Positions 44,863 to 63,918 of a DNA stretch of 64,000 bases are shown one piece after another; position 1 is the first letter of the stretch; every line of letters begins with the position of its first letter. A program made the position numbers and the translations under genes. Under the pieces are notes generated by a model. The model ran no database searches and was not told where the DNA came from. It saw nothing but the letters and a program-made list of their open reading frames with translations. Where the stretch lies: contig PNNH01000005.1 of NCBI GenBank assembly GCA_013824165.1, positions 1 through 64,000 on the forward strand. The letters run 5' to 3'. This DNA comes from Methylibium sp. (GTDB lineage: Bacteria > Pseudomonadota > Gammaproteobacteria > Burkholderiales > Burkholderiaceae_C).

Positions 44863-44939
44863 GGTGGTTGTAGCTCAGTTGGTAGAGTCCAGGATTGTGA
44901 TTCCTGTTGTCGTGGGTTCGAGTCCCATCAGCCACCCCA
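44863..44939 (+). tRNA. tRNA-His (anticodon GTG)
   Basis: A complete cloverleaf with the extra 5' G at position -1: acceptor GTGGTTG pairs with CAGCCAC (one G-T), discriminator C73, encoded CCA; anticodon arm CAGGA-TTGTGAT-TCCTG with anticodon GTG; T-arm GTGGG-TTCGAGT-CCCAT. It is the last core feature before the sulfur/carbon-fixation region and has its own promoter and terminator. Confidence 0.97.
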
Positions 44940-47731: not shown

Positions 47732-47820
47732 GCCTGCGGCGCGTGGACCTCAAATACGGGATGACACGTATGGTGCGCCTGTATCCTTTTATTAGCATGG
47801 AGTGAACAAGGAGACTTCCC

Positions 47821-48291: not shown

Positions 48292-48378
48292 TCCCGCAAA
48301 GATCCGGTGTCAACGCAAACTCAGCTAAGCATTCAATCGAGCCGGACCTCAAGCGGTTCGCTCACAAGGAGATAAAAC

Positions 48379-48690: not shown

Positions 48691-48708
48691 TTCTGTTGTC
48701 ATTGAGCG

Positions 48709-48728
48709 CCGGCCCGCATGCGGGCCGG
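48709..48728 (+). terminator. Palindromic hairpin between soxZ and soxA
   Basis: CCGGCCCGCATGCGGGCCGG is a perfect 20-bp palindrome 18 nt after the soxZ stop, followed by TCTCTATTTG. It can form an 8-bp G/C stem in RNA. The weak T-tract suggests partial termination or 3'-end protection rather than a full stop, since soxA has no obvious promoter in the remaining 70 nt. Confidence 0.6.
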
Positions 48729-48797
48729 TCTCTATTTGTGCTTTCATTCGCGTGCCTTACCCTTTAGAACCCAGATAAGCAAAACAGGAGACGGAGC

Positions 48798-49598
48798 ATG
48801 AAGCTTCCAAAGGTCCTTCTCGCCATCAGCTGCGCGCTGCCGCTGTCGATGGCTCAGGCTCAAAAGAGTGCGGCAGATGGCATAGCTGAATACCGGGCGC
48901 TGCTGGCCGACGGCAATCCGGCCGAGCTGTTCGAAGCCAAGGGCGAGGGCATCTGGAAGACCAAGCGCGGTCCGAAGAATGCGTCTCTGGAAGCCTGTGA
49001 TCTGGGCAAAGGGCCAGGTGTCGTCAAAGGCGCTTTCGTCGAGTTGCCGCGCTGGTTCAAGGACACGCAGCGGGTGCAGGACATGGAGTCTCGCCTGCTG
49101 ACCTGCATGGAAACACTGCAGGGTCTGGACCCGGTGGCAATTGCAAAGACGCCTTTTGGCCGCGGTGAGCAGGCCAATATGGAAGCTCTGGCGGCCTGGA
49201 TCTCGGCTGAGTCACGCGGCATGAAGATGAACTTGTCTCAGGGCCATTCGGACGAGCGTCGGATGTATGAATTGGGCAAGCGGGCCTTCTTCTTCCGTGG
49301 CGGCCCGATGGATTTTTCCTGCGCCTCCTGTCATGGCGAGGAGGGCAAGCGAATCCGTTTGCAGGACTTGCCGATCCTGACGAAGAATCCGGGAGACGGC
49401 GTTGGCTTCGCGGCCTGGCCAGCATACCGGGTGTCCAGCGGTGAGATGTGGAGCATGCAGCGCCGCCTGAACGACTGCTTCCGCCAGCAACGCTTTCCTT
49501 ACCCAGGGTTTGCTTCGGATGTGACGATTGCTCTGGCCGTCTATATGGGCGTCAACGCCAAGGGTGCCGAGTCGATTGCCCCGGCCATCAAGCGCTGA
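48798..49598 (+). CDS. soxA: L-cysteine S-thiosulfotransferase subunit SoxA (monoheme type)
   Basis: The 266-residue protein has a signal peptide (LPKVLLAISCALPLSMAQA), an N-terminal domain without heme motif but with C67 and C103 (probable disulfide), and a C-terminal cytochrome domain with CASCHG (C175, C178, H179). The active-site cysteine that becomes the persulfide heme ligand is C227 in RRLNDCFRQQ. With SoxX it joins thiosulfate to the SoxY cysteine. The lost N-terminal CxxCH places it in the monoheme SoxA group. AGGAGACGGAGC precedes the ATG; soxX follows after 7 nt. Confidence 0.95.
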   Translation: MKLPKVLLAISCALPLSMAQAQKSAADGIAEYRALLADGNPAELFEAKGEGIWKTKRGPKNASLEACDLGKGPGVVKGAFVELPRWFKDTQRVQDMESRLLTCMETLQGLDPVAIAKTPFGRGEQANMEALAAWISAESRGMKMNLSQGHSDERRMYELGKRAFFFRGGPMDFSCASCHGEEGKRIRLQDLPILTKNPGDGVGFAAWPAYRVSSGEMWSMQRRLNDCFRQQRFPYPGFASDVTIALAVYMGVNAKGAESIAPAIKR

Positions 49599-49605
49599 AG
49601 GAGAC

Positions 49606-50259
49606 ATGATGCGAAAGACAACAATTGCAGTAGCCGCCAGCATCGCCGCCGTCACCCTGACGCTGGCCGGATGTGCCGTCGCGCCCAGTTCAGCCGAGCT
49701 TGATGCGCAGGCTGCAGCGATGATGAAGGCCTCGTTCCGTGACGAAGGTATCGCCACGATGAAGCGGCTGGATCAGGACCTGGGCCAGCAAGCCTGCTCG
49801 TCCGACAAGCAGCCCAGCGATGCGGTCGCCAAGAAGATCGAGGAAGAGTCGATGGCTTCGATTCGCTGGCCGGCCGGCGGCCAATACATCGGCGACTGGC
49901 GTGAGGGCGAGAGGCTGGCGCAGAACGGGCGCGGCATGACCTGGACCGACCGCTCTGCGGCGTCCAGTGCCAACGGCGGCAACTGCTACAACTGCCACCA
50001 GATCAGCAAGGCTGAGATCTCCTTCGGCACGATTGGGCCGAGCCTGTACAACTACGGCAAGATCCGTGGCGTGAAGGATGTTGCCGACCCCGCGACGGCC
50101 GCGATCGTGCAGTACACCTGGGGCAAGCTGTGGAATTCCAAGGCTTACAGCGCCTGTTCCAACATGCCGCGCTTCGGCCATGCCGGACTGCTGGATGAGA
50201 CGCAGCTCAAGCACATCATGGCCCTGCTGCTGGACCCGAAGTCACCGGTCAACCAGTAA
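49606..50259 (+). CDS. soxX: SoxX c-type cytochrome subunit of SoxAX
   Basis: The 217-residue protein starts at ATG 49606 (or the adjacent ATG 49609) after AAGGAGAC. It has a lipoprotein-like signal (VTLTLAGCAVAPSS, cysteine at 23), an N-terminal extension of about 85 residues with C64, and a cytochrome domain with CYNCHQ (C127, C130, H131) and the methionine ligand in CSNMPRFGHAG. SoxX forms the electron-accepting part of SoxAX. The extension makes it longer than the short SoxX of Paracoccus. A terminator follows. Confidence 0.95.
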   Translation: MMRKTTIAVAASIAAVTLTLAGCAVAPSSAELDAQAAAMMKASFRDEGIATMKRLDQDLGQQACSSDKQPSDAVAKKIEEESMASIRWPAGGQYIGDWREGERLAQNGRGMTWTDRSAASSANGGNCYNCHQISKAEISFGTIGPSLYNYGKIRGVKDVADPATAAIVQYTWGKLWNSKAYSACSNMPRFGHAGLLDETQLKHIMALLLDPKSPVNQ

Positions 50260-50271
50260 ACACTCGCCACC

Positions 50272-50295
50272 AGCCCGCTTCGGCGGGCTTTGTTT
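50272..50295 (+). terminator. Terminator between soxX and soxB
   Basis: AGCCCGC-TTCG-GCGGGCT is a 7-bp stem with a stable TTCG tetraloop followed by TTGTTT, 12 nt after the soxX stop. It separates soxB from the upstream sox genes in transcription, so soxB probably has its own promoter in the 27 nt to its start or depends on read-through. Confidence 0.8.
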
Positions 50296-50305
50296 GAAGT
50301 TAAAC

Positions 50306-50321
50306 ATAAGCGATTACTTAT
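50306..50321. promoter_or_regulatory. Inverted repeat directly before soxB
   Basis: ATAAG-N6-CTTAT, perfect 5-bp arms, ends 1 nt before the soxB ATG at 50323 and after the terminator. No Shine-Dalgarno sequence stands out there. The repeat may be an operator for the sox regulator or a translational control hairpin. Confidence 0.45.
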
Positions 50322-50322
50322 C

Positions 50323-52056
50323 ATGAATCTCAGCAAGCGCGAATTTTTGCAGGTCATGTCGGCCGCTTCCGTGGCGGGCATGGGGCTGGGGCGTTATGCC
50401 GATGCGGACGCGGCGACAGCCGAACAAGGGCTGTACGACTTGCCCCGCTTTGGCCAGGTGTCCTTCCTTCACATGACCGACTGCCATGCGCAGCTCAAGC
50501 CGATCTACTTCCGCGAGCCCAATGTGAACCTGGGTATCGCCGGCATGCAGGGCAACACGCCGCATGTGGTGGGCGAGAAGCTGCTCAAGAGCATTGGCGT
50601 GCGTCCGGGGACTGTGCAGGCCCATGCCTACACCTACATCGACTTCGAGCGCGCCGCGCGCCGCTACGGCAAGGTGGGTGGTTTTGCGCATCTCTCTACG
50701 CTGGTCAAGCGAATGAAGGCGAGCCGGCCGGGCGCCTTGCTGCTCGACGGTGGTGACACTTGGCAGGGTTCTGCCACTTCGCTGTGGACCAATGCCCAGG
50801 ACATGGTTGACGCCTGCAAGCTGCTCGGCGTGGACGTGATGACCGGCCACTGGGAGTTCACCTATGGCATGGAGCGCGTCAAGGAAATCCTGGAGAAGGA
50901 TTTCAAGGGCAAGCTCGACTTCGTGGCGCAGAACGTCAAGACCAACGACTTCGGTGACCAGGTGTTCAGCCCCTATGTCATCCGGGAAATCAACGGCGTG
51001 AAGTGCGCCATCATCGGCCAGGCCTTCCCGTACACACCAATCGCCAATCCGCGCCATATGGTGGCGGACTGGGCCTTCGGCATCCAGGACGAGAACATGC
51101 AGGCCATGGTCGACGAGGCGCGCGGCAAGGGCGCCAAGGTCGTCGTCGTGATCTCGCACAACGGCATGGATGTTGACCTCAAGATGGCCTCGCGCGTGCG
51201 CGGCATCGACGCCATCATGGGCGGCCACACGCATGACGGCGTGCCGGTGCCGGTGCTGGTGCAGAACGCAGGTGGCAAGACCATCGTCACGAATGCGGGC
51301 AGCAATGGGAAGTTCCTGGGGGTGCTGGACTTTGAACTCAAGGATGGCCGCGTCAGCGATTTCCGCTACAAGCTGATGCCCATCTTCTCGAACATGCTGA
51401 AGGCCGATCCTGAGATGGACGCCCTGATCAACAAGATCCGGGCGCCGTACGAAGCCAAGCTGTCAGAGAAACTGGCCATCACCGACGGTCTGCTGTATCG
51501 ACGCGGCAACTTCAACGGCAGCTGGGACCAGTTGCTGGTGGACGCACTGATGGATGTGCAGGGCGCGGACATTGCCTTCTCGCCTGGTTTCCGCTGGGGC
51601 ACGAGCCTGCTGCCTGGCGATGTGATCACGCGTGAGTTGATGATGGATCAGGTTGCCACCACCTACTCCTACGCGACCGTCACCGAGATGAGCGGTGCGA
51701 CCATCAAGACCGTGCTTGAGGACGTCTGCGACAACCTGTTCAACCCCGACCCCTACTACCAGCAAGGCGGCGACATGGTGCGCGTTGGTGGCCTGACTTA
51801 TGCCTGCGAGCCAGGTGCGGGCATGGGCCGGCGCATCCAGGACATGCGCCTGAACGGCAAGCCGATCGAGGCCGGCAAGAACTACCGTGTGGCCGGCTGG
51901 GCGCCGGTGGCCGAAGAGGCTGCCAGCATGCCCGGCACCCGCATGGTGTGGGATGTGGTCGAGCAGTGGCTCAAGTCCAAGGGCCGTGTCACGCCGCGCA
52001 AGATCAACACGCCGCGTCTGATCGGCGTCAGCGGAAATCCGGGCATCGTGCTCTGA
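50323..52056 (+). CDS. soxB: Thiosulfohydrolase SoxB
   Basis: The 577-residue protein has an export signal with SKREFLQVMSAASVAG and the 5'-nucleotidase-like dimanganese core: FLHMTDCHAQLKP, LLLDGGDTWQGSAT, MTGHWEFTYGMERVK, VVISHNGMDVDLK and GGHTHDGVPVP. The C-terminal domain with SPGFRWGTSLLPGD and YYQQGGDMVRVGGL is typical. SoxB releases sulfate from the SoxY cysteine. The signal carries KR, not RR, at the Tat twin-arginine position. No good ribosome-binding site is visible upstream. Confidence 0.96.
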   Translation: MNLSKREFLQVMSAASVAGMGLGRYADADAATAEQGLYDLPRFGQVSFLHMTDCHAQLKPIYFREPNVNLGIAGMQGNTPHVVGEKLLKSIGVRPGTVQAHAYTYIDFERAARRYGKVGGFAHLSTLVKRMKASRPGALLLDGGDTWQGSATSLWTNAQDMVDACKLLGVDVMTGHWEFTYGMERVKEILEKDFKGKLDFVAQNVKTNDFGDQVFSPYVIREINGVKCAIIGQAFPYTPIANPRHMVADWAFGIQDENMQAMVDEARGKGAKVVVVISHNGMDVDLKMASRVRGIDAIMGGHTHDGVPVPVLVQNAGGKTIVTNAGSNGKFLGVLDFELKDGRVSDFRYKLMPIFSNMLKADPEMDALINKIRAPYEAKLSEKLAITDGLLYRRGNFNGSWDQLLVDALMDVQGADIAFSPGFRWGTSLLPGDVITRELMMDQVATTYSYATVTEMSGATIKTVLEDVCDNLFNPDPYYQQGGDMVRVGGLTYACEPGAGMGRRIQDMRLNGKPIEAGKNYRVAGWAPVAEEAASMPGTRMVWDVVEQWLKSKGRVTPRKINTPRLIGVSGNPGIVL

Positions 52057-52111: not shown

Positions 52112-52135
52112 GTAGGGCCGCGGGAGCGGCCCTAC
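52112..52135. repeat. REP-like palindrome between soxB and arsR
   Basis: GTAGGGCCGC-GGGA-GCGGCCCTAC, a perfect 10-bp stem with a GGGA loop, followed by TATTG. Its G/C-rich symmetrical form resembles repetitive extragenic palindromes of beta- and gammaproteobacteria; no second copy was seen in this window. Confidence 0.5.
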
Positions 52136-52157
52136 TATTGCTCAACACTTAAGAAAG

Positions 52158-52169
52158 TTTGATATCAAA
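52158..52169. promoter_or_regulatory. 12-bp palindrome before the ArsR-type regulator
   Basis: TTTGATATCAAA is a perfect 12-bp palindrome in an AT-rich pocket of otherwise G/C-rich DNA, 14 nt before the regulator's ATG. ArsR-family repressors usually bind such AT-rich palindromes at their own promoter, so autoregulation is likely. Confidence 0.6.
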
Positions 52170-52183
52170 TTTTCGAGAACGTA

Positions 52184-52606
52184 ATGAGCGACAAACGTCC
52201 GCAAGACCCGTCCCAGGATCTCACTGAGGCCAACGCTGGCGGCGCTACGCCCAGGCCCGATGTAGCCGAGATGCGCCGGCATGCGGCAGAGGCTACCGCG
52301 CTGCTGAAGGCGATGGGCAATGAAGACCGGCTGCTGATTCTGTGCACCCTCAGCCAGGGCGAGATGACGGTGGGCGATCTTGAGGCGCGTACCCAGATCC
52401 ATCAGCCCACCTTATCGCAGCAACTCACGGTGTTGCGTGCGCAAGGCATGGTCTGCTGCCGCCGCGAAGGCCGGCACGCCTTCTACTCGGTCTGCAGCCC
52501 TGCGGCTCTGGCCACCATCGACACGCTCTACGGCCTTTTCTGCGCGCGCAGCGGGACTTGCACGCCGCCTGCACCGAGCAAGGGCCGGGGGAGGGCGCCC
52601 AAGTGA
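52184..52606 (+). CDS. ArsR-family regulator, probable persulfide-sensing sox repressor
   Basis: The 140-residue winged-helix protein has the ArsR core ATALLKAMGNEDRLLILCTL, recognition helix QIHQPTLSQQLTVLRAQGMV and wing CCRREGRHAFYSV. Cysteines C54 (helix 2, LLILCTL) and C120 (last helix, LYGLFC) are placed as in BigR/SqrR/SoxR-type sensors, which form an intramolecular polysulfide bridge and leave DNA. Metal-binding CxC motifs of arsenic/cadmium sensors are absent. C91, C92 and C104 are additional. Position after soxB supports sox control. N-terminal 28 residues are disordered in character. Confidence 0.85.
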   Translation: MSDKRPQDPSQDLTEANAGGATPRPDVAEMRRHAAEATALLKAMGNEDRLLILCTLSQGEMTVGDLEARTQIHQPTLSQQLTVLRAQGMVCCRREGRHAFYSVCSPAALATIDTLYGLFCARSGTCTPPAPSKGRGRAPK

Positions 52607-52711: not shown

Positions 52712-54016
52712 ATGAAACGACTGACAGCAGTCGCTGTGGCGACGCTCGCCCTGCCTTTTTCTGCGCAAGCCACCAACGGCATGCTGCTGGAGGGCTACGG
52801 GCCGATCAGCGCGGCCATGGGTGGGGCCGCGACGGCGGTCGAGAACGGCCTTGCCGCCGCCGCCAACAACCCCGCAACGCTGGGGCTGCAGACCGCGGGC
52901 GCCCGCCTGGATCTCGCCATCGGCCACCTCGGGCCTCGAGTCTCTTCAAGTGCCGGTCCCATGGTGGCGGATTCGGGTGGACGCGCCTACGTGATGCCCG
53001 CTCTGGGCTACGGCCGGCGCAATGGCGATCTCACTTACGGGGTCGCTCTGTTCGCCCAGGGCGGCATGGGCACCGACTACGCGTCTAACAGCTTCCTCGC
53101 GATGGGTTCGGGCAAGGAAGTGCGATCTGAGCTAGGCGTTGGGCGGCTCATCCTGCCGCTGGCCTGGCAGGCCAGCCCTGAGCTGGTGATCGGTGGCTCG
53201 GTGGATCTGGTGTGGTCGACCCTTGACCTGCGCATGGCGGCGTCCGGCGCCCAGCTCGGCCAGATGGTGACCGGGGCCGGCGGCAATCTCGCGATGGCCT
53301 TGCCGGCACTGGGCGGTGCACCTTGGGCGCGCATTGACTTCAGTGACGGCAGCAGCTTTTCTGGTGAGGCCTTCTCGACAGGCTTTGCTGCCAAGCTCGG
53401 GCTGATCTACAAGGCGTCGCCGACGCTCACACTGGGTGCAAGCTGGCACAGCAAGACTTCGCTGCGCGATATGAAGACGGGCAAGAACGCGGCCTCGCTG
53501 AGTGCCTTCGGTGGCTTTGCTGATGCCGGCCAACTGACGGTGCAGGATTTCCAGATGCCGCAGCAGTTTGCGCTGGGCCTGGGCTGGCAGGCAACGCCGG
53601 CGCTGCTGTTTGCGCTGGATGTCAAGCATGTTGCCTGGTCTGACGTGATGCAGTCCTTCAAGATGCGCTACGTCAGTTCGGGCATGGGCGGTGAAGTGAG
53701 CTTCGCACTGCCACAGCAATGGCGCGATCAGACCGTGATGGCGATGGGCGTGGCATGGAAGGCGTCCCCGGCGCTGACGCTACGCGCGGGCTACAACTCG
53801 GACTCGAACCCGATACCGGACAGCACGGTGAACCCGTTGTTCCCGGCCACGATTCGAAAGCACTACAGCCTGGGCTTCGGCTACGAGCTGTCGGAGCGCT
53901 CGGGCATCAGCGCCGCGGTCACCAGGGCGCCAAAGGTGAGTGTGCAAGCCGGCTCCGGAGTTTCGATCAGCCACAGCCAGTTGAATGCGCAGCTGATGTT
54001 CAGCCAGCGCTTCTGA
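52712..54016 (+). CDS. OmpP1/FadL-family outer-membrane transporter
   Basis: The 434-residue protein has a signal peptide (KRLTAVAVATLALPFSAQA), the FadL hatch-like N-terminus (TNGMLLEGYGPISAAMGGAA, ENGLAAAANNPATLG) and a beta-strand pattern of alternating residues ending MFSQRF with terminal Phe. FadL channels move hydrophobic molecules across the outer membrane by lateral diffusion. A copy inside a sox cluster suggests uptake of sulfur (S8, polysulfide) or hydrophobic organosulfur compounds; that is inference. CTGGAGACAAAAC precedes the ATG. It follows the arsR gene by 105 nt. Confidence 0.85.
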   Translation: MKRLTAVAVATLALPFSAQATNGMLLEGYGPISAAMGGAATAVENGLAAAANNPATLGLQTAGARLDLAIGHLGPRVSSSAGPMVADSGGRAYVMPALGYGRRNGDLTYGVALFAQGGMGTDYASNSFLAMGSGKEVRSELGVGRLILPLAWQASPELVIGGSVDLVWSTLDLRMAASGAQLGQMVTGAGGNLAMALPALGGAPWARIDFSDGSSFSGEAFSTGFAAKLGLIYKASPTLTLGASWHSKTSLRDMKTGKNAASLSAFGGFADAGQLTVQDFQMPQQFALGLGWQATPALLFALDVKHVAWSDVMQSFKMRYVSSGMGGEVSFALPQQWRDQTVMAMGVAWKASPALTLRAGYNSDSNPIPDSTVNPLFPATIRKHYSLGFGYELSERSGISAAVTRAPKVSVQAGSGVSISHSQLNAQLMFSQRF

Positions 54017-54058
54017 ATTCCTCAGCCACTTTTTTAGCTCAAATAGCAGGAAATTCTC

Positions 54059-54637
54059 ATGAACGGATTTAAGACATCGATCATCCGAGTTGTCTCGGTG
54101 GCGCTGCTGGGCGCAGCACTGACCGGTTGCGGCACGGTCGCGACTATGGGCAAGCTCGAGGAGGGGGCCGCCGCCGAGGCTGGCCGGATGTGGGACCGCT
54201 GGGTCGAGAGCGGTGGCGACATTGCCGTGGCCACCACCTGGGAGCGCAAGGTCAAGCCGGGCGTCACTCTGGACCAGATCGAGCAGGCGCTGGCCAGCGT
54301 CGCCACCGAGATGAATATTCGCCCGGTGGGCGAGTTGCCGCTGTCAAAGGAGTTGGAGGCGCGCAGCGGCAAGCCGGAGCGGCTGCTGAAGGTCTACAAC
54401 TACTGCAACCCGCAGACCGCGCGCAAGATGGTCGACTTCTCGCCGCACATGGCGGCCTATCTGCCTTGTCGCATCAGCATCGTTGAGCAGGCCGACGGCC
54501 TGTGGCTGTACACGCTCAACATGGACATGATGATCAAGATGGGCCGCAAGATGCCGCCTGAACTCAAGGTGGACACCATGAAGGTGCGCGAAGCGATTTG
54601 GCAGATGATGGAGAAGGGTTCGAAGGGCGACTTCTGA
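54059..54637 (+). CDS. DUF302-domain lipoprotein
   Basis: The 192-residue protein has a lipoprotein signal (VVSVALLGAALTGCGTV, lipobox cysteine C24). The central and C-terminal part resembles DUF302: LKVYNYCNPQTARKMVDFSP and AAYLPCRISIVEQADGLWLY, with the two conserved cysteines near residues 116 and 138. The DUF302 fold is of unknown function and is often found near sulfur-metabolism genes. The cysteines could carry sulfur. AGGAAATTCTC precedes the ATG; it follows the FadL gene by 42 nt and is ended by a terminator. Confidence 0.75.
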   Translation: MNGFKTSIIRVVSVALLGAALTGCGTVATMGKLEEGAAAEAGRMWDRWVESGGDIAVATTWERKVKPGVTLDQIEQALASVATEMNIRPVGELPLSKELEARSGKPERLLKVYNYCNPQTARKMVDFSPHMAAYLPCRISIVEQADGLWLYTLNMDMMIKMGRKMPPELKVDTMKVREAIWQMMEKGSKGDF

Positions 54638-54670
54638 GTCGCTGCCCTTTCAGGGCCGGTGTGAAGCAGG

Positions 54671-54693
54671 AGCGGGCCGCATGGCCCGCTTTT
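54671..54693. terminator. Terminator between DUF302 gene and dsrE-like gene
   Basis: AGCGGGCC-GCAT-GGCCCGCT forms an 8-bp stem with 4-nt loop and TTTT on its right side (54690-54693). It lies 34 nt after the DUF302 stop and 18 nt after the convergent dsrE-like stop. The T-run serves the plus-strand transcript. Confidence 0.8.
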
Positions 54694-54710
54694 CAATTGC
54701 TTCGCCAGAT

Positions 54711-55154
54711 TCAGGGCTTCAGATAGGCGTAGCTCTCGCGCGCCTGCAGTTTGCTGACTTCGGCAACGCCGGACGGCACGACCTTGGCCTCCATCACCAC
54801 GCGGTCAGCGGGGATCTTGCGGGAGACCAGGGTGTTGTTGCAGACGCGGAACTCGACACCGCGGCCAGACAACTCGCCGATGGCGCCCGCGAAAGGCTGG
54901 CCCGAGGCGTTCTCGGCACCATCGAGCAGGAAGTCGATGCCGGGGCCATGCGTCACGACGATGATCTTGGTCTTTGGCTCAGCATTCAGATGGTTGCGGA
55001 TATTGCCGATGGCTCTCGAAGCTTGCTGCACACCTTCGCTCAGGTGATAGACCACCTTGATGCCGGAATCGTCGGCACGCGCAGCGCTGGCCGCCGCGAT
55101 ACCGAAGGTGGCGGCCAGCAGGCCGCCCAAGTGAAATCGTCGTGTGTTTGACAT
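54711..55154 (-). CDS. Exported DsrE-family sulfur-carrier-like protein
   Basis: The 147-residue protein has a Tat-like signal (NTRRFHLGGLLAATFGIA, cleavage near ARA-DDSG) and a DsrE-like alpha/beta domain: IKVVYHLSEGVQQASRAIGN, KTKIIVVTHGPGIDFLLDGA, LSGRGVEFRVCNNTLVSRKI. The single cysteine C104 in EFRVCNNTL is at the position of the sulfur-binding cysteine of DsrE/TusD relatives. Periplasmic location is unusual for DsrE. The start at 55154 follows GAGGAGCGATGT; an in-frame start 14 codons upstream would prepend non-signal residues. Divergent from the YeeE/YedE gene. Confidence 0.82.
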   Translation of the reverse strand: MSNTRRFHLGGLLAATFGIAAASAARADDSGIKVVYHLSEGVQQASRAIGNIRNHLNAEPKTKIIVVTHGPGIDFLLDGAENASGQPFAGAIGELSGRGVEFRVCNNTLVSRKIPADRVVMEAKVVPSGVAEVSKLQARESYAYLKP

Positions 55155-55206
55155 ACATCGCTCCTCAACCGGGTGTCCGGGGTGTAAATTAGCCATTGCG
55201 CATACT

Positions 55207-55226
55207 AGGATTTAATGCCAAATCCT
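55207..55226. promoter_or_regulatory. Inverted repeat in the dsrE-like/yedE divergent promoter
   Basis: AGGATTT-N6-AAATCCT, perfect 7-bp arms with 6-nt centre, in the 109-nt gap between two divergent sulfur genes. Its size and symmetric position fit a dimeric regulator controlling both. No -10 or -35 is assigned. Confidence 0.5.
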
Positions 55227-55263
55227 GGCGCCTGACATACGGGCTTACGCCGACATCACCATC

Positions 55264-56397
55264 ATGCCGATCGAATCCCTCATCGACTCTCTCGGGCAGT
55301 CCAAGGCCTTGGCTTTGGGAGGGCTGTTGATCGGTTTCATGTTCGGCTTCTTCGCCCAGCGCTCGCGATTCTGCCTGCGCTCGGCCACCATCGAGTTTTC
55401 GCGCCGCGTGCATGGCGGCAAGTTGACGGTCTGGTTGTTCGCCTTCGCTGTCGCACTGCTGTCGACCCAAGGGCTGATCGCGCTGGGATGGCTGGATGTC
55501 AGCAGCGCGCGCCAGCTGGCGGCGCGTGGCAGCTTGTCGGGGGCAGCCATTGGCGGCGCGCTGTTCGGCGTCGGCATGATCCTGGCGCGTGGCTGTTCCA
55601 GCCGGTTGCTGGTGTTGGCCGCCCAGGGCAATCTGCGCTCTGTGCTGTCCGGGCTGGTGTTCGCGGTGACGGCCCAGGCCGCCTGGTCGGGCGTGCTCGC
55701 GCCCTGGCGCGAACAGATCTCTGGCTGGTGGACGGTGGATGGCGGTGCGGCCCGCGACCTGGTCGCGATCAGCGGCCTGGGGCGCACGGGCGCCCTGCTG
55801 TTCGGCGCCTTGTGGCTGATCGCCGCGGTCCGCTGGGCCCGCCATCAGCGCGTGCCCGCCTGGGGCTGGGCAGGGGCCAGCATGGTGGGCCTCAGCATCA
55901 CGGCTGCCTGGTGGTACACCGGCTCGGTCGCGGCAGCCGGGCTGGAAGCCGCGGCGGCGCCGGTGCAGAGCCTGAGCTTCACCGGCCCATCGGCCGAAGT
56001 GCTGGTGCGTGTGCTGTTCGCACCGGACAAGGCGCCGACCTTCGATCTGGGTCTGGTTCCTGGCGTCTTCCTGGGCTCCTTCGTGGCTGCGGCGCTGTTC
56101 CGTGAACTCAAGCTCGAAGGCTTTGCTGGCGGGGCCAGCATGCGCCGCTATCTGATCGGCGCCGTGCTGATGGGCTTTGGCGGCATGCTGGCCGGTGGCT
56201 GTGCGGTCGGTGCGGGCCTGTCCGGCGCGGCAGTCTTCACCATCACTTCCTGGGTCACGCTGTCGGCCATGTGGGCCGCTGCGGCGCTGACCGATTGGCT
56301 GGTGGACCAACGCGGCGAGCAGTTCGGTCGGGAAGCGGCACCGGCCGATCAAGCGATGCCCAGCCGCAGCTTTTCAAACCAGGGTCTGCGTCTATGA
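55264..56397 (+). CDS. YeeE/YedE-family sulfur (thiosulfate) transporter
   Basis: The 377-residue membrane protein has about nine to ten hydrophobic spans in two halves, each with the family's cysteine motif: QRSRFCLRSATIE (C37), ILARGCSSRLLVLAA (C111) and LAGGCAVGAGLSG (C313). In TsuA/YeeE these cysteines pass thiosulfate through the membrane. Short and long family members occur; this is the fused, long form. It begins the second half of the accessory module. The stop overlaps a tiny frame by 4 nt and the SoxH-like gene starts 82 nt later. Confidence 0.9.
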   Translation: MPIESLIDSLGQSKALALGGLLIGFMFGFFAQRSRFCLRSATIEFSRRVHGGKLTVWLFAFAVALLSTQGLIALGWLDVSSARQLAARGSLSGAAIGGALFGVGMILARGCSSRLLVLAAQGNLRSVLSGLVFAVTAQAAWSGVLAPWREQISGWWTVDGGAARDLVAISGLGRTGALLFGALWLIAAVRWARHQRVPAWGWAGASMVGLSITAAWWYTGSVAAAGLEAAAAPVQSLSFTGPSAEVLVRVLFAPDKAPTFDLGLVPGVFLGSFVAAALFRELKLEGFAGGASMRRYLIGAVLMGFGGMLAGGCAVGAGLSGAAVFTITSWVTLSAMWAAAALTDWLVDQRGEQFGREAAPADQAMPSRSFSNQGLRL

Positions 56398-56477
56398 GCC
56401 GCGCGGACAGCGCTGAAGCGGCGCAGCAGCGAGTAGCCAGCGCGACGGCAGACGCCGCCGCGCGCCAAGCGAGATAG
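56394..56477 (+). CDS. Very short Ala-rich reading frame (doubtful)
   Basis: ATG at 56394 overlaps the yedE stop (ATGA) and opens 27 codons: Ala/Arg/Gln-rich with no motif, ending 2 nt before the SoxH-like ATG. It might be a coupling leader that passes ribosomes from yedE to the next gene. Composition alone cannot separate it from chance in G/C-rich DNA. Confidence 0.2.
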   Translation: MSRADSAEAAQQRVASATADAAARQAR

Positions 56478-56479
56478 CG

Positions 56480-57451
56480 ATGACATTCCTCCTCCAACAC
56501 GCGTTGCGCCGCAAGCGCAGCTTCGTCACCGCGCTGGCGGTGGCTGCGCTGGCTGCAATGCATGCGCCGGCAGCACTGGCTCAGAAAGTCCAGGCCGTGC
56601 AGGTGGCGCCGCAGACCTGGATGGTGCAGGGCGAGTCCGCGCTGGGCTCGTCCGCGAACCGCAACTTCATCTCCAACGCCGCCTTTGTCGTTACCGATGA
56701 CGGCGTCGTGGTCGTGGATGCACTCGGCTCACCGGCGCTGGCGCTGGAGTTGATGGCCGAAATCCGGCGCATCACGCCCAAGCCGATCAAGCACCTGATC
56801 ATCACGCACTACCACGCCGACCACATCTACGGTCTGCAGGAGTTCAAGGCCGCTGGCGTGCAGTTGATCGGCCAGAAGGACGGCCAGCTGTATCTGCACT
56901 CCGAGACCGCCGAGTTGCGCCTGAAGGCCAGCCGCGAGGAGATGTTCCCTTGGATCGACGAGAAAACCCACTTGGTGCCGGCCGACCGCTGGGTGAGCGG
57001 GACCACGACCCTGCGTCTGGGTGGGCTGGACTTCGTGCTGCAAGCCGCCGGGCCTGCGCATACGCCGGAGGATCTGGTGGTCTATGTGCCGCAGCTCAAG
57101 CTGCTGGTGGCGGGTGACCTGGTGTTCCGCGGCCGCGTGCCCTTTGTCGGCCAGGCGGACAGTGGCAGCTGGATCGCGGCGCTGGATCGCCTGCTGGCCT
57201 TCGACACGGCGGTGGTCGTGCCTGGGCATGGCCCAGTGTCGATGACGGCCCGCGAAGACCTGCAGCTGACGCGCGACTACCTGGCTTATCTGCGCCAGAC
57301 CATGGGCGATGCCGCACGCGATCTTGAGCCGTTCGAGGAGGCCTACGCCAAGACCGACTGGTCGCGCTTTGCCAAGCTGCCGTTGTTTGGCGTGGCCAAC
57401 CGCATCAATGCCTACAACACCTATTTGCTGATGGAGCAATCAGCCAAATGA
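56480..57451 (+). CDS. SoxH-like exported metallo-beta-lactamase-fold hydrolase
   Basis: The 323-residue protein has a signal peptide (SFVTALAVAALAAMHAPAALA), then an MBL fold with intact metal motif ITHYHADHIYGLQEF (HxHxDH), AGPAHTPEDLVVYVPQLKLL (third His), LVAGDLVFRGRVP (Asp) and VVPGHGPVSM (last His). It resembles SoxH and the quinoprotein-relay metallohydrolases, which are non-essential for thiosulfate oxidation; a glyoxalase-II- or persulfide-dioxygenase-like role on periplasmic sulfur thiols is possible. ATGA overlap links it to the thioredoxin-like gene. Confidence 0.85.
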   Translation: MTFLLQHALRRKRSFVTALAVAALAAMHAPAALAQKVQAVQVAPQTWMVQGESALGSSANRNFISNAAFVVTDDGVVVVDALGSPALALELMAEIRRITPKPIKHLIITHYHADHIYGLQEFKAAGVQLIGQKDGQLYLHSETAELRLKASREEMFPWIDEKTHLVPADRWVSGTTTLRLGGLDFVLQAAGPAHTPEDLVVYVPQLKLLVAGDLVFRGRVPFVGQADSGSWIAALDRLLAFDTAVVVPGHGPVSMTAREDLQLTRDYLAYLRQTMGDAARDLEPFEEAYAKTDWSRFAKLPLFGVANRINAYNTYLLMEQSAK

Positions 57452-57948
57452 CGCTGCGTCGAAGAGATCTGTTGCCGGCGATGGCGCTGGCACCTTGGGC
57501 GTTTGGTGCGCAGGCCACGCCGCCCGCGCGTGGCGAGGCGGTGAATTGGCCGCAGCAGCTCAGCCTGCTGGATGGTCGCGCCTGGACGACCGAGCAGTGG
57601 CGTGATCGCGCGGCTGTGATCGTGTTCTGGTCCTTGCACTGCGGCTTTTGCGAGCGCCACAACGTGCATGTCGAAAAACTGCACCGGGCGGCGGCTGGCA
57701 AGCGCCTCAGCGTGCTGACCGTCGTGGCCGAGTTTGACGCCGACGCCGTGCGGCGGCGCATGGCACAGCGCGCCTGGACATTCCCCGTGACCTTGGGCCG
57801 CGAGCCGCTGGCTGCTGCGCTGGGCGCGCGGCGCAGCGTGCCGCTGACCGTCACGGTCGATCGAAAGGGGCGCCTCAGCGAGGTGATCCCGGGCGAGATG
57901 TTTGAGGCGGATGTGCTCGGCTTCATGCAACTCGCCGAGCGCGGCTGA
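57448..57948 (+). CDS. Exported thioredoxin-like (TlpA/SoxW-type) protein
   Basis: The 166-residue protein has a Tat-like signal (TLRRRDLLPAMALAPWAFGA) and a thioredoxin fold with VIVFWSLHCGFCERHNVHVE, active site C65-GF-C68, and RRSVPLTVTVDRKGRL with the cis-proline. It would supply or remove thiol reducing power in the periplasm, for example to SoxY (SoxW in Paracoccus has this role, driven by SoxV). No soxV/ccdA-like gene is in the window. The ATG overlaps the stop of the SoxH-like gene by 4 nt. Confidence 0.85.
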   Translation: MTLRRRDLLPAMALAPWAFGAQATPPARGEAVNWPQQLSLLDGRAWTTEQWRDRAAVIVFWSLHCGFCERHNVHVEKLHRAAAGKRLSVLTVVAEFDADAVRRRMAQRAWTFPVTLGREPLAAALGARRSVPLTVTVDRKGRLSEVIPGEMFEADVLGFMQLAERG

Positions 57949-58011
57949 AGGAAGTTTTGCGCCCCAAAGTGGTGCTTGTTTTATCGATTCGGCATATTGA
58001 TCAAAACTATC

Positions 58012-58026
58012 ATTGATTGCATCAAT
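58012..58026. promoter_or_regulatory. Inverted repeat before the chemoreceptor gene
   Basis: ATTGAT-TGC-ATCAAT, perfect 6-bp arms, in a 105-nt AT-rich gap (CATATTGATCAAAACTATC...). A further TTGATCAA palindrome lies at 57997-58004. It lies 28 nt before the mcp ATG. Possible operator or promoter element. Confidence 0.4.
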
Positions 58027-58053
58027 TCTTGTGCCGTTGACCTTGGATAGAGC

Positions 58054-59622
58054 ATGCTGAACAACTTCCGGATCTCGCAACGTTTCGTCACCATCATGGC
58101 CATGTTCTGGCTGAGCTTTGGTGTGCTGGCGAGCTTGGCCCTCTGGGGCTTGTTCGTTGGTGCCGACAGGCTTGACTATGTCGCAAAGCAGCGTCTTTCG
58201 ACCGTAGCTCAATTGCATGCGGTACTCAAGAACAACCAGGCCAACCGCACCGAAGTACTACTGGCCTTCCAGCACGCCCCGACGAGTCCGTTGGCAGCGA
58301 TTCACGAGCATCCTGTCAGCCTGCACCTGGATTTGATCGTGAAGCGCCGCGCCGAGAACGATGAAGCATGGCCGAGGCTGGGTGCTGGCTTCATCAGTCC
58401 AGAAGAAAAAGCCCTGTTTGAGGATGCCGATGCAAAACGTAAGGCTTGGACGGTCCGGGTCGATGCGACCCTGGCGGCGATGAAGGCCGGCGATTTCTCG
58501 GACACCGTCATGGCCTCTTTTTTGCAGGCTGGGCGCCGAGAAGGCATGGCCTTGTTCGATGCGCTGGAGGGGCTGAGCAAGTTTCAGCAGGAGCGCGCAG
58601 TGGCTGCTGCCGAGCAGGCCAAGCAGCGCGCTCAGGCTTTGCTCGCTGTCTTCGTGGCGCTGGCCTTGTTGGTTGGCCTGCCTGCGACCTGGATGTTCTT
58701 CGGGCTGCTGGCACGCATCCGCTCTGGCTTTGCCAAGGCGGACGCGCTGTCCACCGCGATTGCCGCCGGGGACCTTAGCCAGGCGGTGCAGGCCGATGGC
58801 CGCGACGAGATCGGTCATCTGTTGGGCCAGATGGGCCTGATGCGCGAGCGGCTGCTGAGCCTGATCCGCGAGGTGCGCAGCGCCGCCGATGGCGTGCAAA
58901 CTGCAGCCGACGAAGTGGCCTCGGGCAATATGGACCTATCAGGCCGCACCGAGCAGACCGCCAGCCAGCTGCAGCAGACGGCCAGCACGACGGACGAACT
59001 CAGCACCACGGTGCGGCAGAACGCCGATAACGCGGGTCAGGCCAATCAGCTGGCGCAGGGCGCCAGCGAGGTGGCCGGGCGCGGCGGCGCGGTGGTCGGC
59101 GAAGTGGTGGCGACGATGCGCGGCATCAACGACAGCAGCCGCAAGATTGCCGACATCATTGGCGTCATCGATGGCATTGCCTTCCAGACCAATATCCTTG
59201 CGCTGAACGCAGCCGTCGAGGCTGCGCGGGCCGGCGAGCAGGGCCGCGGCTTCGCCGTGGTGGCCTCCGAGGTGCGCAGTCTGGCGCAGCGCAGCGCAGC
59301 TGCCGCGCGCGAAATCAAGACGCTGATCTCGACCAGCGTCGAGCATGTCGAGCAGGGTACTGTGCTGGTGGACCGCGCCGGCAGCACCATGCAAGAGGTG
59401 GTGGATGCGATCCGCCGCGTCAGCGACATCGTGGCCGAGATCAGCGTCGCCAGCCGCGAGCAGAGCGAAGGTGTCAGCCTGGTCGGCAATGCGATCACGC
59501 AAATGGACCAGAGCACGCAGCAGAACGCCGCGCTGGTCGAGCAGAGCGCCGCCGCCGCTGCCAGCCTGCGCGAGCAGGCCAATCAGCTGGTAGCTGCGGT
59601 GTCAGGCTTCAAGCTGCCCTGA
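58054..59622 (+). CDS. Methyl-accepting chemotaxis protein with four-helix-bundle sensor
   Basis: The 522-residue chemoreceptor has a first membrane segment ([24 protein letters not shown] region, 10-33), a periplasmic helical sensor (about 34-190) of 4HB type with [20 protein letters not shown], a second segment ([20 protein letters not shown]), HAMP (about 220-270) and a cytoplasmic coiled coil with the hairpin tip [20 protein letters not shown] and [20 protein letters not shown]. No CheR-tethering pentapeptide is at the C-terminus. It follows the sox accessory genes after 105 nt, suggesting taxis to a sulfur compound or redox state, which is inference. Confidence 0.9.
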
Positions 59623-59650: not shown

Positions 59651-60574
59651 TCACTCCCGCTCCAGCTCCAGATAGGTGCGGCTGGCATTGCCGGGCATCA
59701 GCTCCGCCGCATTGAGCAAGCGCATGAAGGGACGGGCGTCGAAGCTGCGCACCGCCGGGCTGACGTCCTGCCCCTCCTCGACGGCCTTCTTCATGTGCGC
59801 GCGCAGCGCGAGCAGATAGGCCTGGGTGTCGGCCTTGGCGGTAGCGACGTCGGTGGGCGCACCATGGCCGGGCACCAGCACGCTTGGCCTGAGCGCTTCG
59901 ATGACGGCGAAAGTTTGCAGCCAGCGCTTGGTGTTGCTGACCGGCAGCACGCCCAGCATGCGCTGCGTGTAGACCACGTCGCCGCTGAAGAGCACGCCCT
60001 GCTGTGGCAGCCAGACCATCATGTCGCCGGGGGTGTGCGCGCCGCCGCGGTGCTTGAGCTCAATGCGCAGGCCACCGAGTTCCAGGATCTCGTTCTCGCC
60101 ACTAATCCAGCGCGTTGGCAGCGTTGGCACCGTGCCGTCGGCCTTGGCGCCGAGCACCGCGCGCAGCGCTTGCAGATGCTCGCTGCCGCGGCTTTGCATA
60201 TCAGCCTGCCCGTTGGCATGGGCTATCAGCTCGGCGCCCTGGGCCTTGAAGAAGCCATTGCCGAGCCAGCGGTGATCCTGCCCGCCGGTGTTGACGACCC
60301 ATTTGATGCGCGTCGCGCCAACCTTGGCCGCCGCCGCGGCGATAGCCTGCGCCGACTGCCAGGTCGCGCCGCTGTCGATGAGCAGCGCGCCCTCGGGCGT
60401 GAGCACCAGGCCGATATTGGCATTCAGCCCCTCGTTCTCGGGCGTGCGTGCACCTGTCTCGCCGACGAAGGCATAGACGCCAGCGGCCACAGGCTTGAAC
60501 TGCACATCGACAGCGAGAGCCGGTGCAGTGAGTGTCAGGGTCAGGACGAGAGCACTTGCGGTGGTCTTGAACAT
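59651..60574 (-). CDS. Exported metallo-beta-lactamase-fold protein with degenerate metal site
   Basis: The 307-residue protein has a signal peptide (ALVLTLTLTAPALA) and an MBL fold, but where HxHxDH should be it reads VVNTGGQDHRWLGN: T96 and G98 replace the first two histidines, while D100 and H101 remain. Later ligands are kept: GGAHTPGDMMVW, FSGDVVYTQR and LVPGHGAPTD. Zinc binding at site 1 is likely lost or altered. It resembles the SoxH-like protein at 56480-57451 in layout. Start at 60574; a longer frame upstream overlaps cbbR. Convergent with mcp, downstream of cbbR (46 nt). Confidence 0.82.
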   Translation of the reverse strand: MFKTTASALVLTLTLTAPALAVDVQFKPVAAGVYAFVGETGARTPENEGLNANIGLVLTPEGALLIDSGATWQSAQAIAAAAAKVGATRIKWVVNTGGQDHRWLGNGFFKAQGAELIAHANGQADMQSRGSEHLQALRAVLGAKADGTVPTLPTRWISGENEILELGGLRIELKHRGGAHTPGDMMVWLPQQGVLFSGDVVYTQRMLGVLPVSNTKRWLQTFAVIEALRPSVLVPGHGAPTDVATAKADTQAYLLALRAHMKKAVEEGQDVSPAVRSFDARPFMRLLNAAELMPGNASRTYLELERE

Positions 60575-60620
60575 CGTGAACTCCGGTGCGGTGGGGTCAG
60601 GCAGGCGGCGACGCGTCCGC

Positions 60621-61577
60621 TCAAGGGGCTGGCGGATTGATGGTCCCGTGCGCCAGCAGGGGCTGGTCATGCCGCTGCAGATGCGCCTCGGCATGCTCCA
60701 GCACGAAATAACGAAAAGCTTCCGCGGCCGGTGATAGCAGCTTGCTCTGCATGCGAACCAGGTTCCAGGTGCGCATCACCGGCGTGTGCTCGACGTCCAG
60801 CAGCTTCAGCGCCCCGGCGCGCAGCTCCAGGCCTAGCGTGTGCAAGGACAGGAAGGCCACGCCCATGCCTGCGATGACGGCCTGTTTGATGGTCTCGTTG
60901 CTGGGCATCTCCATCGCGATGCGCGGCGACAGATGGTGGTCGCGGAAGAAGGCGTCCATCACATTGCGCGTGCCGGAGCCGGCCTCGCGGGCGATGAAGC
61001 GCTGATTCACCAGCGCCTCCAGCGGCACATGGTCCAGCGCGGCCAAGGGGTGCTCAGGCGCTGCAACGAAAACCTGCGGGTGTGCGGCAAAGGGCTCGGC
61101 CCGGGTGGCCAACTCCTTGGGTGGGCGACCCATCACCGCCAGATCCACCTCGCCGGACTGCAGCAGCGCCACCAGCTGTTCCCGGTTCTGGCAGACCGAG
61201 AGCTTGACCTCGATGCCCGGATGTTCGTCGTGAAAGCGCGCCAGCAACTGCGGCACGAAGTATTTGGCGGTGCTCACCAGGCCGACTGACAGCAGGCCGC
61301 TCTCGGCACCCTTGAAGCGCGCCATCGCGTCGTCCGCCTCTTTCAGCGTGGCCAGCAGGCGCCGGGCATAGACCAGGAAGTATTCGCCCGTTGTGGTCAG
61401 TGTCACCTGGCGGCCACGGCGCTCGAACAGCGGCAGACCGAGCTGCGATTCCAGCTCCTTGACCTGCATGGTGACGGCCGGCGGTGTCAGGTGCAGCGCC
61501 TCAGCGGCACGCGCGAAGCTCAGGCCCTTGGCCACTTCGGTGAAGACGCGCAGCTGGCGGAAGCTGATGTTGAGCAT
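60621..61577 (-). CDS. cbbR: LysR-type regulator CbbR
   Basis: The 318-residue LysR protein has the N-terminal HTH (FRQLRVFTEVAKGLSFARAA, LHLTPPAVTMQVKELESQLG) and an effector domain (GLVSTAKYFVPQLLARFHDE, VAAPEHPLAALDHVPLEALV). Its divergent position directly before cbbL identifies it as CbbR, which activates Calvin-cycle genes in response to metabolites such as RuBP, PEP or NADPH. The 112-nt gap to cbbL holds a 20-bp palindrome. Confidence 0.93.
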   Translation of the reverse strand: MLNISFRQLRVFTEVAKGLSFARAAEALHLTPPAVTMQVKELESQLGLPLFERRGRQVTLTTTGEYFLVYARRLLATLKEADDAMARFKGAESGLLSVGLVSTAKYFVPQLLARFHDEHPGIEVKLSVCQNREQLVALLQSGEVDLAVMGRPPKELATRAEPFAAHPQVFVAAPEHPLAALDHVPLEALVNQRFIAREAGSGTRNVMDAFFRDHHLSPRIAMEMPSNETIKQAVIAGMGVAFLSLHTLGLELRAGALKLLDVEHTPVMRTWNLVRMQSKLLSPAAEAFRYFVLEHAEAHLQRHDQPLLAHGTINPPAP

Positions 61578-61584
61578 TCAGTAA

Positions 61585-63156
<1,572 letters not shown>

Positions 63157-63483
63157 GTGGCCCGCATGCGCAGGTCGGTGCGAGGGCAGGTCGGCGCGGC
63201 GCTCCGCTGCGCTCATGTCCCCCGCCGTCGGCCTGCAGCCGCCGGCTCCTCCTTTACTTCGCTCCGCGAAGCACCGCACCGACCTGCGGCAGCACCGTGG
63301 CATGCGCATGGGCGCAGTACGCCGCTGCCGCCCGCCTCGGGTGTCGGGCGTCTGGTGAACGGACGTCAAGGAGGAGGTCTTGGCCGCAAGGCCAAGGCCG
63401 GGGGACATGAGCGGAACCAGTCACCCGGCGACCGCGGCGCGCCTGAGACCACGAAGTAACGAATCACCGAAGGAGCACACACC
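63157..63483. repeat. Inverted-repeat element between cbbL and cbbS
   Basis: This 327-nt gap holds no credible gene. It has a perfect 15-bp inverted pair, CGCTCATGTCCCCCG (63210-63224) with CGGGGGACATGAGCG (63399-63413), whose inner flanks (GGCCT, GCC, CTCCTCC) also correspond, and a second perfect 14-bp pair, CGCAGGTCGGTGCG (63169-63182) with CGCACCGACCTGCG (63275-63288), partly overlapping the first. Form I cbbL and cbbS are usually separated by much less. The element looks like a short palindromic insertion (MITE- or REP-derived) and could form extensive mRNA structure. The last 25 nt carry the cbbS ribosome-binding site. Confidence 0.7.
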
Positions 63484-63918
63484 ATGATGACCAACCCCAC
63501 CGGCCGCATCACGCAAGGCCAGTTCAGCTTCCTGCCCGACCTCAGCGATGCCGAGATCGGCCTGCAGATCGAGTACGGCCTCAAAAAGGGCTATGCCTGG
63601 AGCGTCGAGTACACCGACGACCCGCATCCGCGCAACACCTACTGGGAAATGTTCGGCATGCCCATGTTCGACCTGCAGGACGCCGCCGGCGTGCTGCTGG
63701 AGCTGAACAACTGCCGCAAGACATTCCCCAGTCACTACATCCGCCTAATGGCCTTCGACTCCACGCGCGGCGTCGAAAGCATCGTGATGAGCTTCATCGT
63801 CAACCGCCCGGCCCAGGAGCCCGGCTTCGGCCTGGTGCGCCAGGAAGTCAACGGCCGCACGATGCGCTATACGGTCCAGGGCTATGCCGCGGCACGCCCT
63901 GAAGGCGAGCGCTACTGA
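63484..63918 (+). CDS. cbbS: RuBisCO small subunit, form I
   Basis: The 144-residue protein starts at ATG 63484 (or 63487) after GAAGGAGCACACACC. It matches the red-type small subunit: ITQGQFSFLPDLSDAEIGLQ, YGLKKGYAWSVEYTDDPHPR, NTYWEMFGMPMFDLQDAAGV and the C-terminal extension RTMRYTVQGYAAARPEGERY, the hairpin that in red-type enzymes fills the central channel. It forms L8S8 with CbbL. Confidence 0.97.
   Translation: MMTNPTGRITQGQFSFLPDLSDAEIGLQIEYGLKKGYAWSVEYTDDPHPRNTYWEMFGMPMFDLQDAAGVLLELNNCRKTFPSHYIRLMAFDSTRGVESIVMSFIVNRPAQEPGFGLVRQEVNGRTMRYTVQGYAAARPEGERY

Follow-up and report, generated by a model that had tools for sequence, protein, structure and literature searches.

A FadL-type channel and a DUF302 lipoprotein beside the sox cluster of Methylibium sp. 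as a candidate outer-membrane port for hydrophobic sulfur

The genes that follow the sox (thiosulfate oxidation) cluster of Methylibium sp. were analyzed in a stretch of 64,000 nucleotides (assembly GCA_013824165.1, contig PNNH01000005.1, positions 1 to 64,000, forward strand), hereafter called the window, from a source genome that is 99.26% complete. Directly behind the regulator gene soxR lie two genes, one for a FadL/TodX-type outer-membrane channel and one for a lipoprotein of the DUF302 family. They form a conserved pair in which the lipoprotein and its site seem to have stayed while the channel was exchanged. The neighborhood as a whole is not one module: sulfur-handling genes recur as neighbors of sox clusters, and the complete set does not. 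We propose, with a probability of about 0.4, that two units adjoin here, a set of genes that supports the Sox system and a regulated FadL-DUF302 port for hydrophobic sulfur. The features on which the proposal centers are as follows.

45220 to 52056, plus strand, soxC-D-Y-Z-A-X-B core (SoxB open reading frame, ORF, at 50290-52056)
52112 to 52135, no strand, hairpin in the soxB-soxR gap, where the sox transcript may end
52153 to 52174, no strand, 22-bp palindrome before soxR-FadL-DUF302, candidate SoxR operator
52184 to 52606, plus strand, SoxR/SqrR/BigR-like ArsR repressor with Cys54 and Cys120
52712 to 54016, plus strand, FadL/TodX-type outer-membrane channel, cysteine-free (PF03349, 119.5 bits, cut-off 29.7)
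54059 to 54637, plus strand, DUF302 lipoprotein, lipobox Cys24 (PF03625, 46.8 bits, cut-off 23)

The FadL and DUF302 genes form a conserved pair

The product of the FadL gene exceeded the cut-off of PF03349 and matched solved channels over nearly its full length, which places it in the FadL/OMPP1/TodX family; its nearest solved relatives were the hydrocarbon channels TodX, TbuX, and CymD. It differs from these by its sox neighborhood and its lipoprotein partner. A structure model from the single sequence was useless (predicted local distance difference test, pLDDT, 30). The partner exceeded the cut-off of PF03625, and its model, of modest confidence (pLDDT 64), resembled the DUF302 folds 1Q9U and 1J3M (E values 4.9e-6 and 1.5e-4). 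All 25 orthologues in the alignment, among them several near-identical sequences, have the lipobox cysteine, which is followed by glycine. In lipoproteins, a glycine in this position (+2) goes with location in the outer membrane, and the DUF302 lipoprotein is therefore predicted to sit there.

Orthologues were searched for in 150 sampled genomes of the source family (141 genera). Eleven close DUF302 orthologues were present, the source included (65-100% identity), clearly apart from ten weak places at E 2e-6 or worse, and a FadL homologue lay directly beside DUF302 in 11/11. A sample of 300 genomes of the order added three orthologues (62-64% identity), 3/3 with FadL, which brings the adjacency to 14/14 loci of close orthologues. 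The data were similar for 80 genome-contig loci chosen by means of their DsrE genes: 13 carried DUF302, and FadL was present in 12 of these, while the thirteenth stops at a contig edge; two of these loci (L005 and L009) overlap with the family sample. In contrast, FadL was found nearby in 1/17 control loci of the order with a distant DUF302. That single locus (L270) has its FadL about 2 kb away and is itself a sox locus; another control (L268) is sox-adjacent without FadL, and the stretches of L262 and L265 end soon past DUF302. Loci of the Roseateles type have FadL in front of DUF302, and the remaining loci have DUF302 in front. A soxB gene was located within about 20 kb in 9/14 pair loci.

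The FadL partner has been exchanged

A maximum-likelihood tree was built from 41 of 49 FadL matches; fragments below 300 residues and identical copies were left out. The FadL partners of DUF302 fell into two deep groups (support 100/99 and 90/89), each of which also contained unpaired FadLs. A single clade of the 21 paired FadLs was rejected (approximately unbiased test, p-AU 3.5e-5), with a warning of long branches from the program. The exchange was also visible in the alignment, independently of the tree. Two Limnohabitans loci (L011 and L014) have DUF302 proteins that are 93% identical and FadL proteins that are 29% identical, in the same place before soxC; the corresponding values for Limnohabitans L025 and the Burkholderiaceae metagenome-assembled genome at L046 were 94% and 32%. 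These comparisons indicate that the channel was swapped while the lipoprotein and its site stayed, and such an exchange is the strongest sign that FadL and DUF302 act together.

Thiol-type regulators accompany the pair

The regulator gene of the window precedes FadL. Cys54 and Cys120 of its product aligned with cysteines of the chains 6o8l and 3pqj, which we take to be SqrR and BigR, respectively. The protein scored 95.8 bits on the NCBIfam BigR model, under the cut-off of 155, and is thus called SoxR-like and not BigR. The strong hairpin behind soxB, absent from the list given by the sequence-element scan, is a possible terminator of the sox transcript. Between it and soxR lies the 22-bp palindrome, the sole such site in the source genome at up to 3 mismatches. 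It is kept before soxR in four genomes (the window, L136, L006, and L137). Loci L136 and L137 are the same as L005 and L009, which are also genomes of the family sample. We infer that soxR, FadL, and DUF302 may form an autoregulated operon, with the palindrome as a candidate SoxR operator.

One operator shared by all sox promoters was considered and dropped: the palindrome occurs only before soxR, and the divergent region between the DsrE-like gene and soxT has a different recurring stretch. This stretch, which reads CATACTAGGATTTAA in the window and CATATTAGGATTTAA in L137, L006, L068, and L131, lies beside a second palindrome (55207-55226) that is kept only in L136, with 6-bp arms. A promoter scan gave 1 match, compared with 2.5 in shuffled sequences.

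The regulators at the 13 pair loci other than the window were also compared; Limnohabitans loci of the DsrE-chosen set were left out of this count. In 8/13, the pair is divergent from the gene for a CsoR/DUF156 regulator, whose two cysteines are invariant, and in L261 this gene sits between the pair and soxCDYZAXB. The other five comprise L136 and L137 with SoxR, L260, which starts at a contig edge, and L133 and L164 with neither. The CsoR-type proteins scored far under the cut-offs of the copper, formaldehyde, and nickel/cobalt sensor models. In Thermus, a CsoR-family protein is reported to control sox (PMC10318464).

DUF302 genes and soxB occur together in genomes

We surveyed 369 class-level genomes for the DUF302 family (E at most 1e-12) and soxB (E at most 1e-130), and found the former in 89 and the latter in 149. 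With the source genome left out, soxB was found in 82/88 genomes with DUF302 and in 66/280 others (Fisher p 4e-33). In a subset of one genome per family (157 genomes, chosen by handle numbering) the corresponding values were 36/38 and 30/119 (p 6e-15). Of the 56 genomes with the best DUF302 matches (E at most about 3e-30), 55 have soxB. The excess was weaker in the source family, where soxB exceeded its cut-off in 9/10 further orthologue genomes, G057 being the exception (p 0.02). Among nine same-contig pairs picked by eye, the distance from DUF302 to soxB was 2.6-21 kb in five class genomes (G654, G456, G498, G586, and G577). The association was not taken as proof for the lipoprotein alone, for reasons given below, and the link is one of genomes, perhaps those of a sulfur-oxidizer guild, more than of operons.

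Other neighbors of class-level DUF302 genes were also recorded. In L279, L282, and L283 the gene lies 4-8 kb from efflux-type genes (Pfam on one L279 protein), and in L282 and L283 it adjoins FadL genes of a separate clade. A gene for a dynamin-like GTPase is near DUF302 in L288, L290, L292, L293, L297, and L298 (Pfam in L290).

The Sox support genes

The genes beyond the pair are listed here; the families and positions given by the sequence-only reading, an earlier interpretation of the same DNA, agreed with the ORFs and searches.

54711 to 55154, minus strand, exported DsrE-like protein, start taken at MSNTRR, with Cys105 (PF02635, 45.4 bits, cut-off 22.7)
55207 to 55226, no strand, palindrome with 7-bp arms in the divergent DsrE/SoxT region
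55264 to 56397, plus strand, SoxT, a YeeE/TsuA-like transporter, with Cys37, Cys111, and Cys313 (PF04143, 181.5 bits, cut-off 27)
56480 to 57451, plus strand, exported SoxH-like metallo-hydrolase (TIGR04559, 185.5 bits, under the cut-off of 280)
57448 to 57948, plus strand, exported thioredoxin-like protein, CxxC at Cys65/Cys68, overlapping the SoxH-like gene by 4 bases
58054 to 59622, plus strand, chemoreceptor, probably outside the unit
59651 to 60694, minus strand, second SoxH-like metallo-hydrolase, just beyond the range covered by the sequence-only reading and beside a LysR gene (TIGR04559, 149.8 bits, under the cut-off of 280)

A self-written gene finder based on codon usage also recovered the ORFs named here and above, most of which were in its training set. 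SoxB (TIGR04486, 872 bits, cut-off 550) and SoxX (TIGR04485, 80.6 bits, cut-off 61) exceeded their curated cut-offs, SoxA was recognized by domain PF21342, and SoxC, D, Y, and Z were named from homology and gene order without a curated model; with SoxB and SoxX clustered with soxCDYZA, the region encodes a Sox thiosulfate-oxidation system. It begins shortly past tRNA-His (44864-44939) and ends at LysR and RuBisCO genes (60621-63918). After the second SoxH-like gene comes the LysR regulator (Pfam; read as CbbR), followed by the RuBisCO genes (named by eye).

SoxT is a full-length YeeE protein beside sox, and its three conserved channel cysteines align with those of solved TsuA; it scored under the two NCBIfam TsuA cut-offs (91.6 and 80.3 bits against 400 and 645). 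The DsrE-like protein belongs to the DsrE/DsrF family, and its sole cysteine was present in 88/88 aligned matches of the loci collected at that stage. It is unlike cytoplasmic DsrE because it has a leader peptide (judged by eye). The N-termini of the DsrE-like and thioredoxin-like proteins look twin-arginine-like by eye (TRRFHLGG and LRRRDLLP) and would thereby point to export of already folded proteins. The first SoxH-like protein also stayed under the cut-off of TIGR04558 (162.8 bits, cut-off 300) and is called SoxH-like only. It had been read as a thiol enzyme; it contains no cysteine and is not one in that sense.

The role of SoxT was considered in relation to the source genome, in which no dsrA exceeded the cut-off and CCG-domain matches were found in three open frames (420, 484, and 1363 amino acids). 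We read these frames as glycolate/lactate-type oxidases and not as sHdr; no sHdr-specific model was run. Since no dsrA or sHdr-like frame was recognized and soxCD is present, SoxT is best read as the signal importer of SoxR, and it probably serves sensing and not bulk import. Bulk import of sulfur to the cytoplasm for oxidation was thought unlikely on the same grounds, which also speak against the delivery to the cytoplasm that the sequence-only reading had included. Two reservations apply: the host is not an alphaproteobacterium, and the genome contains elsewhere another full-length YeeE relative, a split pair of such frames, and two further DsrE-family frames.

Recurrence of the neighboring genes at sox clusters

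We analyzed how often each protein of the window accompanies soxB in the family sample. SoxB exceeded its cut-off in 84 genomes, the source genome included, and the 84 soxB loci comprised the 83 other genomes and G017, which has its soxB in two pieces. Up to 20 kb was taken around each soxB, several stretches ending early at contig edges, and searched by tblastn (E at most 1e-4). The MBL metallo-hydrolase was present in 30/84 loci (a second one in 2/84), a SoxT-like protein in 29/84, several at merely 29-40% identity, and DsrE in 26/84, 8 of them at least 60% identical. SoxR-like proteins were found in 23/84, mostly as weak matches, the thioredoxin in 11/84, a CbbR-like protein in 8/84, FadL in 6/84, DUF302 in 5/84, and the RuBisCO large subunit CbbL in 3/84, one match being 29% identical. 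The chemoreceptor occurred in 2/84 and was dropped as part of the unit, as was the idea that a taxis receptor belongs to a sulfur route. DsrE was also rejected as a marker of sox: a core sox gene was found in just 17 of the 80 DsrE loci, or in 32 when SoxT is included, many of these stretches being limited by contig ends.

Among the loci examined, the full gene set was found in the window and in one genome of the same genus (L136) only. L137 and L006 lack the thioredoxin, L137 also lacks the chemoreceptor, and L068 lacks SoxR, its stretch ending at a contig edge. The sequence-only reading had joined all these genes into a single route for sulfur and had proposed the co-occurrence of FadL, DUF302, and DsrE with soxB as the check. 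Most of the genes proved to be linked with sox beyond close strains, and FadL and DUF302 with thiol-type regulators fit the part of the route that leads from outside; a single pathway with this exact set was not supported, as gene content varies among the 84 loci.

Two further features of single loci were recorded. In the Roseateles-type loci L006 (3317-9930) and L137, SoxT is followed by a flavocytochrome c sulfide dehydrogenase gene and by one for an exported protein of the rhodanese type, where the window holds other genes; L006 also has a second YeeE-like gene (Pfam) and a small cytochrome-like gene (by eye). In L198 (G017:C1:3144386-3146075), soxB is divided into two pieces that abut but lie in different frames and match profile positions 1-329 and 330-555, which may reflect a frameshift, a split gene, or a sequencing error.

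Comparison with described systems

Li et al. 2024 (PMC11582611) report SoxT1A as an importer of sulfur destined for oxidation, whereas SoxT1B, as in Hyphomicrobium denitrificans, passes a signal to SoxR; the signaling role is assumed there for Alphaproteobacteria with complete Sox and suggested for Pseudaminobacter. The window resembles this module in its ArsR protein with two SqrR/BigR-type cysteines, its YeeE-type protein with three channel cysteines, and the adjacent sox genes with soxCD. However, its soxR and soxT are parted by FadL-DUF302 and the divergent DsrE-like gene, and a second full-length YeeE relative lies elsewhere.

The sequence-only reading knew of no described pathway with the set, yet much of the grouping is in print. 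Sulfitobacter sox clusters hold DsrE, DUF302, and YeeE reading frames, with DUF302 and YeeE flanked by soxF and soxH (PMC11034169), so that DsrE, DUF302, YeeE, and SoxH genes share one sox region there and in the window, although Sulfitobacter is an alphaproteobacterium. A term search of the main text of that paper did not return the word FadL. In Acidithiobacillia and Thiohalorhabdus, soxA and soxB flank a DUF302 gene, with trithionate oxidation as a guessed function (PMC5037610, PMC5248467), and DUF302 genes in sox operons are also named in PMC10512742. The gene is thus tied to sox in those bacteria and in the window, but theirs is a truncated Sox system without soxCD, and the passages that describe it mention no FadL. 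A plasmid search with DUF302 gave 3 records. The first, plasmid pOB3b1 of Methylosinus trichosporium OB3b, carries soxZ-soxB-DsrE-DsrE-DUF302 with a DUF302 that is 40% identical; another has no sox genes nearby, and the third is from the same Methylosinus strain. Neighboring soxB, DsrE, and DUF302 are common to pOB3b1 and the window, whereas FadL is absent from the plasmid features listed within 8 kb, in a gene table that is incomplete. The search with DsrE gave 3 weak matches.

TodX and CymD are described as passing small hydrophobic molecules by lateral diffusion into the outer membrane (PMC7728783). Our searches for literature joining FadL to a sox cluster or to elemental sulfur returned none, and PMC4287430, in the passages concerned, names FadL for fatty acids only. 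SoxT, the SoxH-like protein, thioredoxin, and exported DsrE are ordinary, already reported companions of sox clusters; the FadL-DUF302 unit is the new part, to the extent that the literature was searched.

Proposed model and alternatives

In the first unit, SoxR would act as a repressor and SoxT would carry a small sulfur signal inward that releases it, while DsrE, thioredoxin, and the SoxH-like protein would handle sulfane sulfur or keep the periplasmic Sox proteins active. The second unit, FadL and the DUF302 outer-membrane lipoprotein behind soxR, would be turned on by a thiol-type regulator, which is SoxR in the window and of the CsoR type at many of the other loci. FadL may let S8 or long polysulfanes (less likely organosulfur compounds) move sideways from the cell surface into the outer membrane, in the way that toluene passes through TodX. 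The anchored DUF302 protein would pick up the sulfur on the periplasmic side and hand it to thiol carriers supplying SoxYZ, with periplasmic DsrE, thioredoxin, and SoxYZ itself as possible receivers. Elemental sulfur, S8, is a small hydrophobic ring, and a FadL port for it is chemically plausible because TodX and CymD pass such molecules sideways.

Several observations weigh against this proposal. Those FadL relatives whose function is known transport hydrocarbons and fatty acids. The invariant Cys116 and Cys137 of DUF302 occur in 37/37 homologues checked; they are family-wide and were dropped as proof of a sulfur role. FadL and DUF302 are among the rarer neighbors of soxB in the family. A FadL of the clade found in the window, 61% identical, stands tail to tail with soxB in L245/L188 (G094) with no DUF302 match in the stretch, and G057, a genome 90% complete, has the pair with no soxB found. 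In L068, soxB-FadL-DUF302 occurs without a detected SoxR gene, and searches of L133 and L164 yielded no CsoR-type gene and no close SoxR. CstR has two cysteines about 29 residues apart and no copper histidine; in contrast, the cysteines of the CsoR-type regulators are 24 residues apart in 8/8, and no CstR model was among the matches from a library whose CstR content was unchecked. At class level, loci with a longer DUF302 had an adjacent FadL in 2/20 and one more about 9 kb away, and a sox gene in 0/20 of the stretches examined, several of them limited by contig ends. DUF302 is thus not always FadL-dependent. Finally, soxB was present in 16 of 17 genomes of the order that had been picked because their DUF302 is distant and domain-only, so that the association with soxB may mark a sulfur-oxidizer guild.

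The pair might instead import a hydrophobic carbon compound, an aromatic or a fatty acid, with proximity to sox arising from co-regulation in mixotrophs. The hydrocarbon channels nearest to FadL favor this, as do four loci (L240-L243) in which the pair has housekeeping-like neighbors (mostly by eye) and no sox gene within the 13-20 kb examined. However, the pairs of these same loci diverge from a two-cysteine regulator, soxB is close to most pair loci, DUF302 and soxB co-occur strongly, and no aromatic-degradation gene was recognized among the searched window proteins, most of 1-44 kb being unannotated. On balance we regard carbon uptake as unlikely. Somewhat less likely again is protection of the envelope or export, in which the pair would clear S8 or polysulfane from the outer membrane during oxidation of thiosulfate or sulfide. 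Regulators of the sulfur type would suit stress as well as uptake, and the DUF302/FadL genes of L282 and L283 are near efflux-type genes, the membrane-fusion member being Pfam-checked in L279 only and the pump named by eye. In contrast, the FadL channels that have been studied import (PMC7728783), and the FadLs of L282 and L283 form a separate, long-branched clade.

That DUF302 is a periplasmic enzyme for polythionates (trithionate), as speculated for Thermithiobacillus, with FadL incidental, agrees with the published proposal for DUF302 in sox operons (PMC5037610, PMC5248467). It is improbable here: FadL adjoins DUF302 throughout the close-orthologue loci, and the channel has been swapped. 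Polythionates, being ionic, do not require a FadL channel. Similarly little weight is given to the view that common sox accessories are loosely gathered here without a functional unit. The order and content of sox loci differ strongly and the chemoreceptor is seldom present, in line with this view, but the adjacency of FadL and DUF302, compared with the controls, and the exchange of the partner in place argue against it. A bolder form of the preferred proposal, in which the pair is a dedicated outer-membrane port for elemental or hydrophobic sulfane sulfur under control of a sulfur sensor and the DUF302 family is an unrecognized Sox companion across Gammaproteobacteria, is doubtful.

The route that water-insoluble sulfur takes across the outer membrane in Gram-negative sulfur oxidizers is, to our knowledge, an open question. 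A conserved pair of channel and lipoprotein beside sox, with thiol-type regulators and in culturable freshwater bacteria, offers a concrete and testable candidate for this entry. The frequent occurrence of DUF302 together with soxB also makes a family without an assigned function a priority for sulfur biochemistry.

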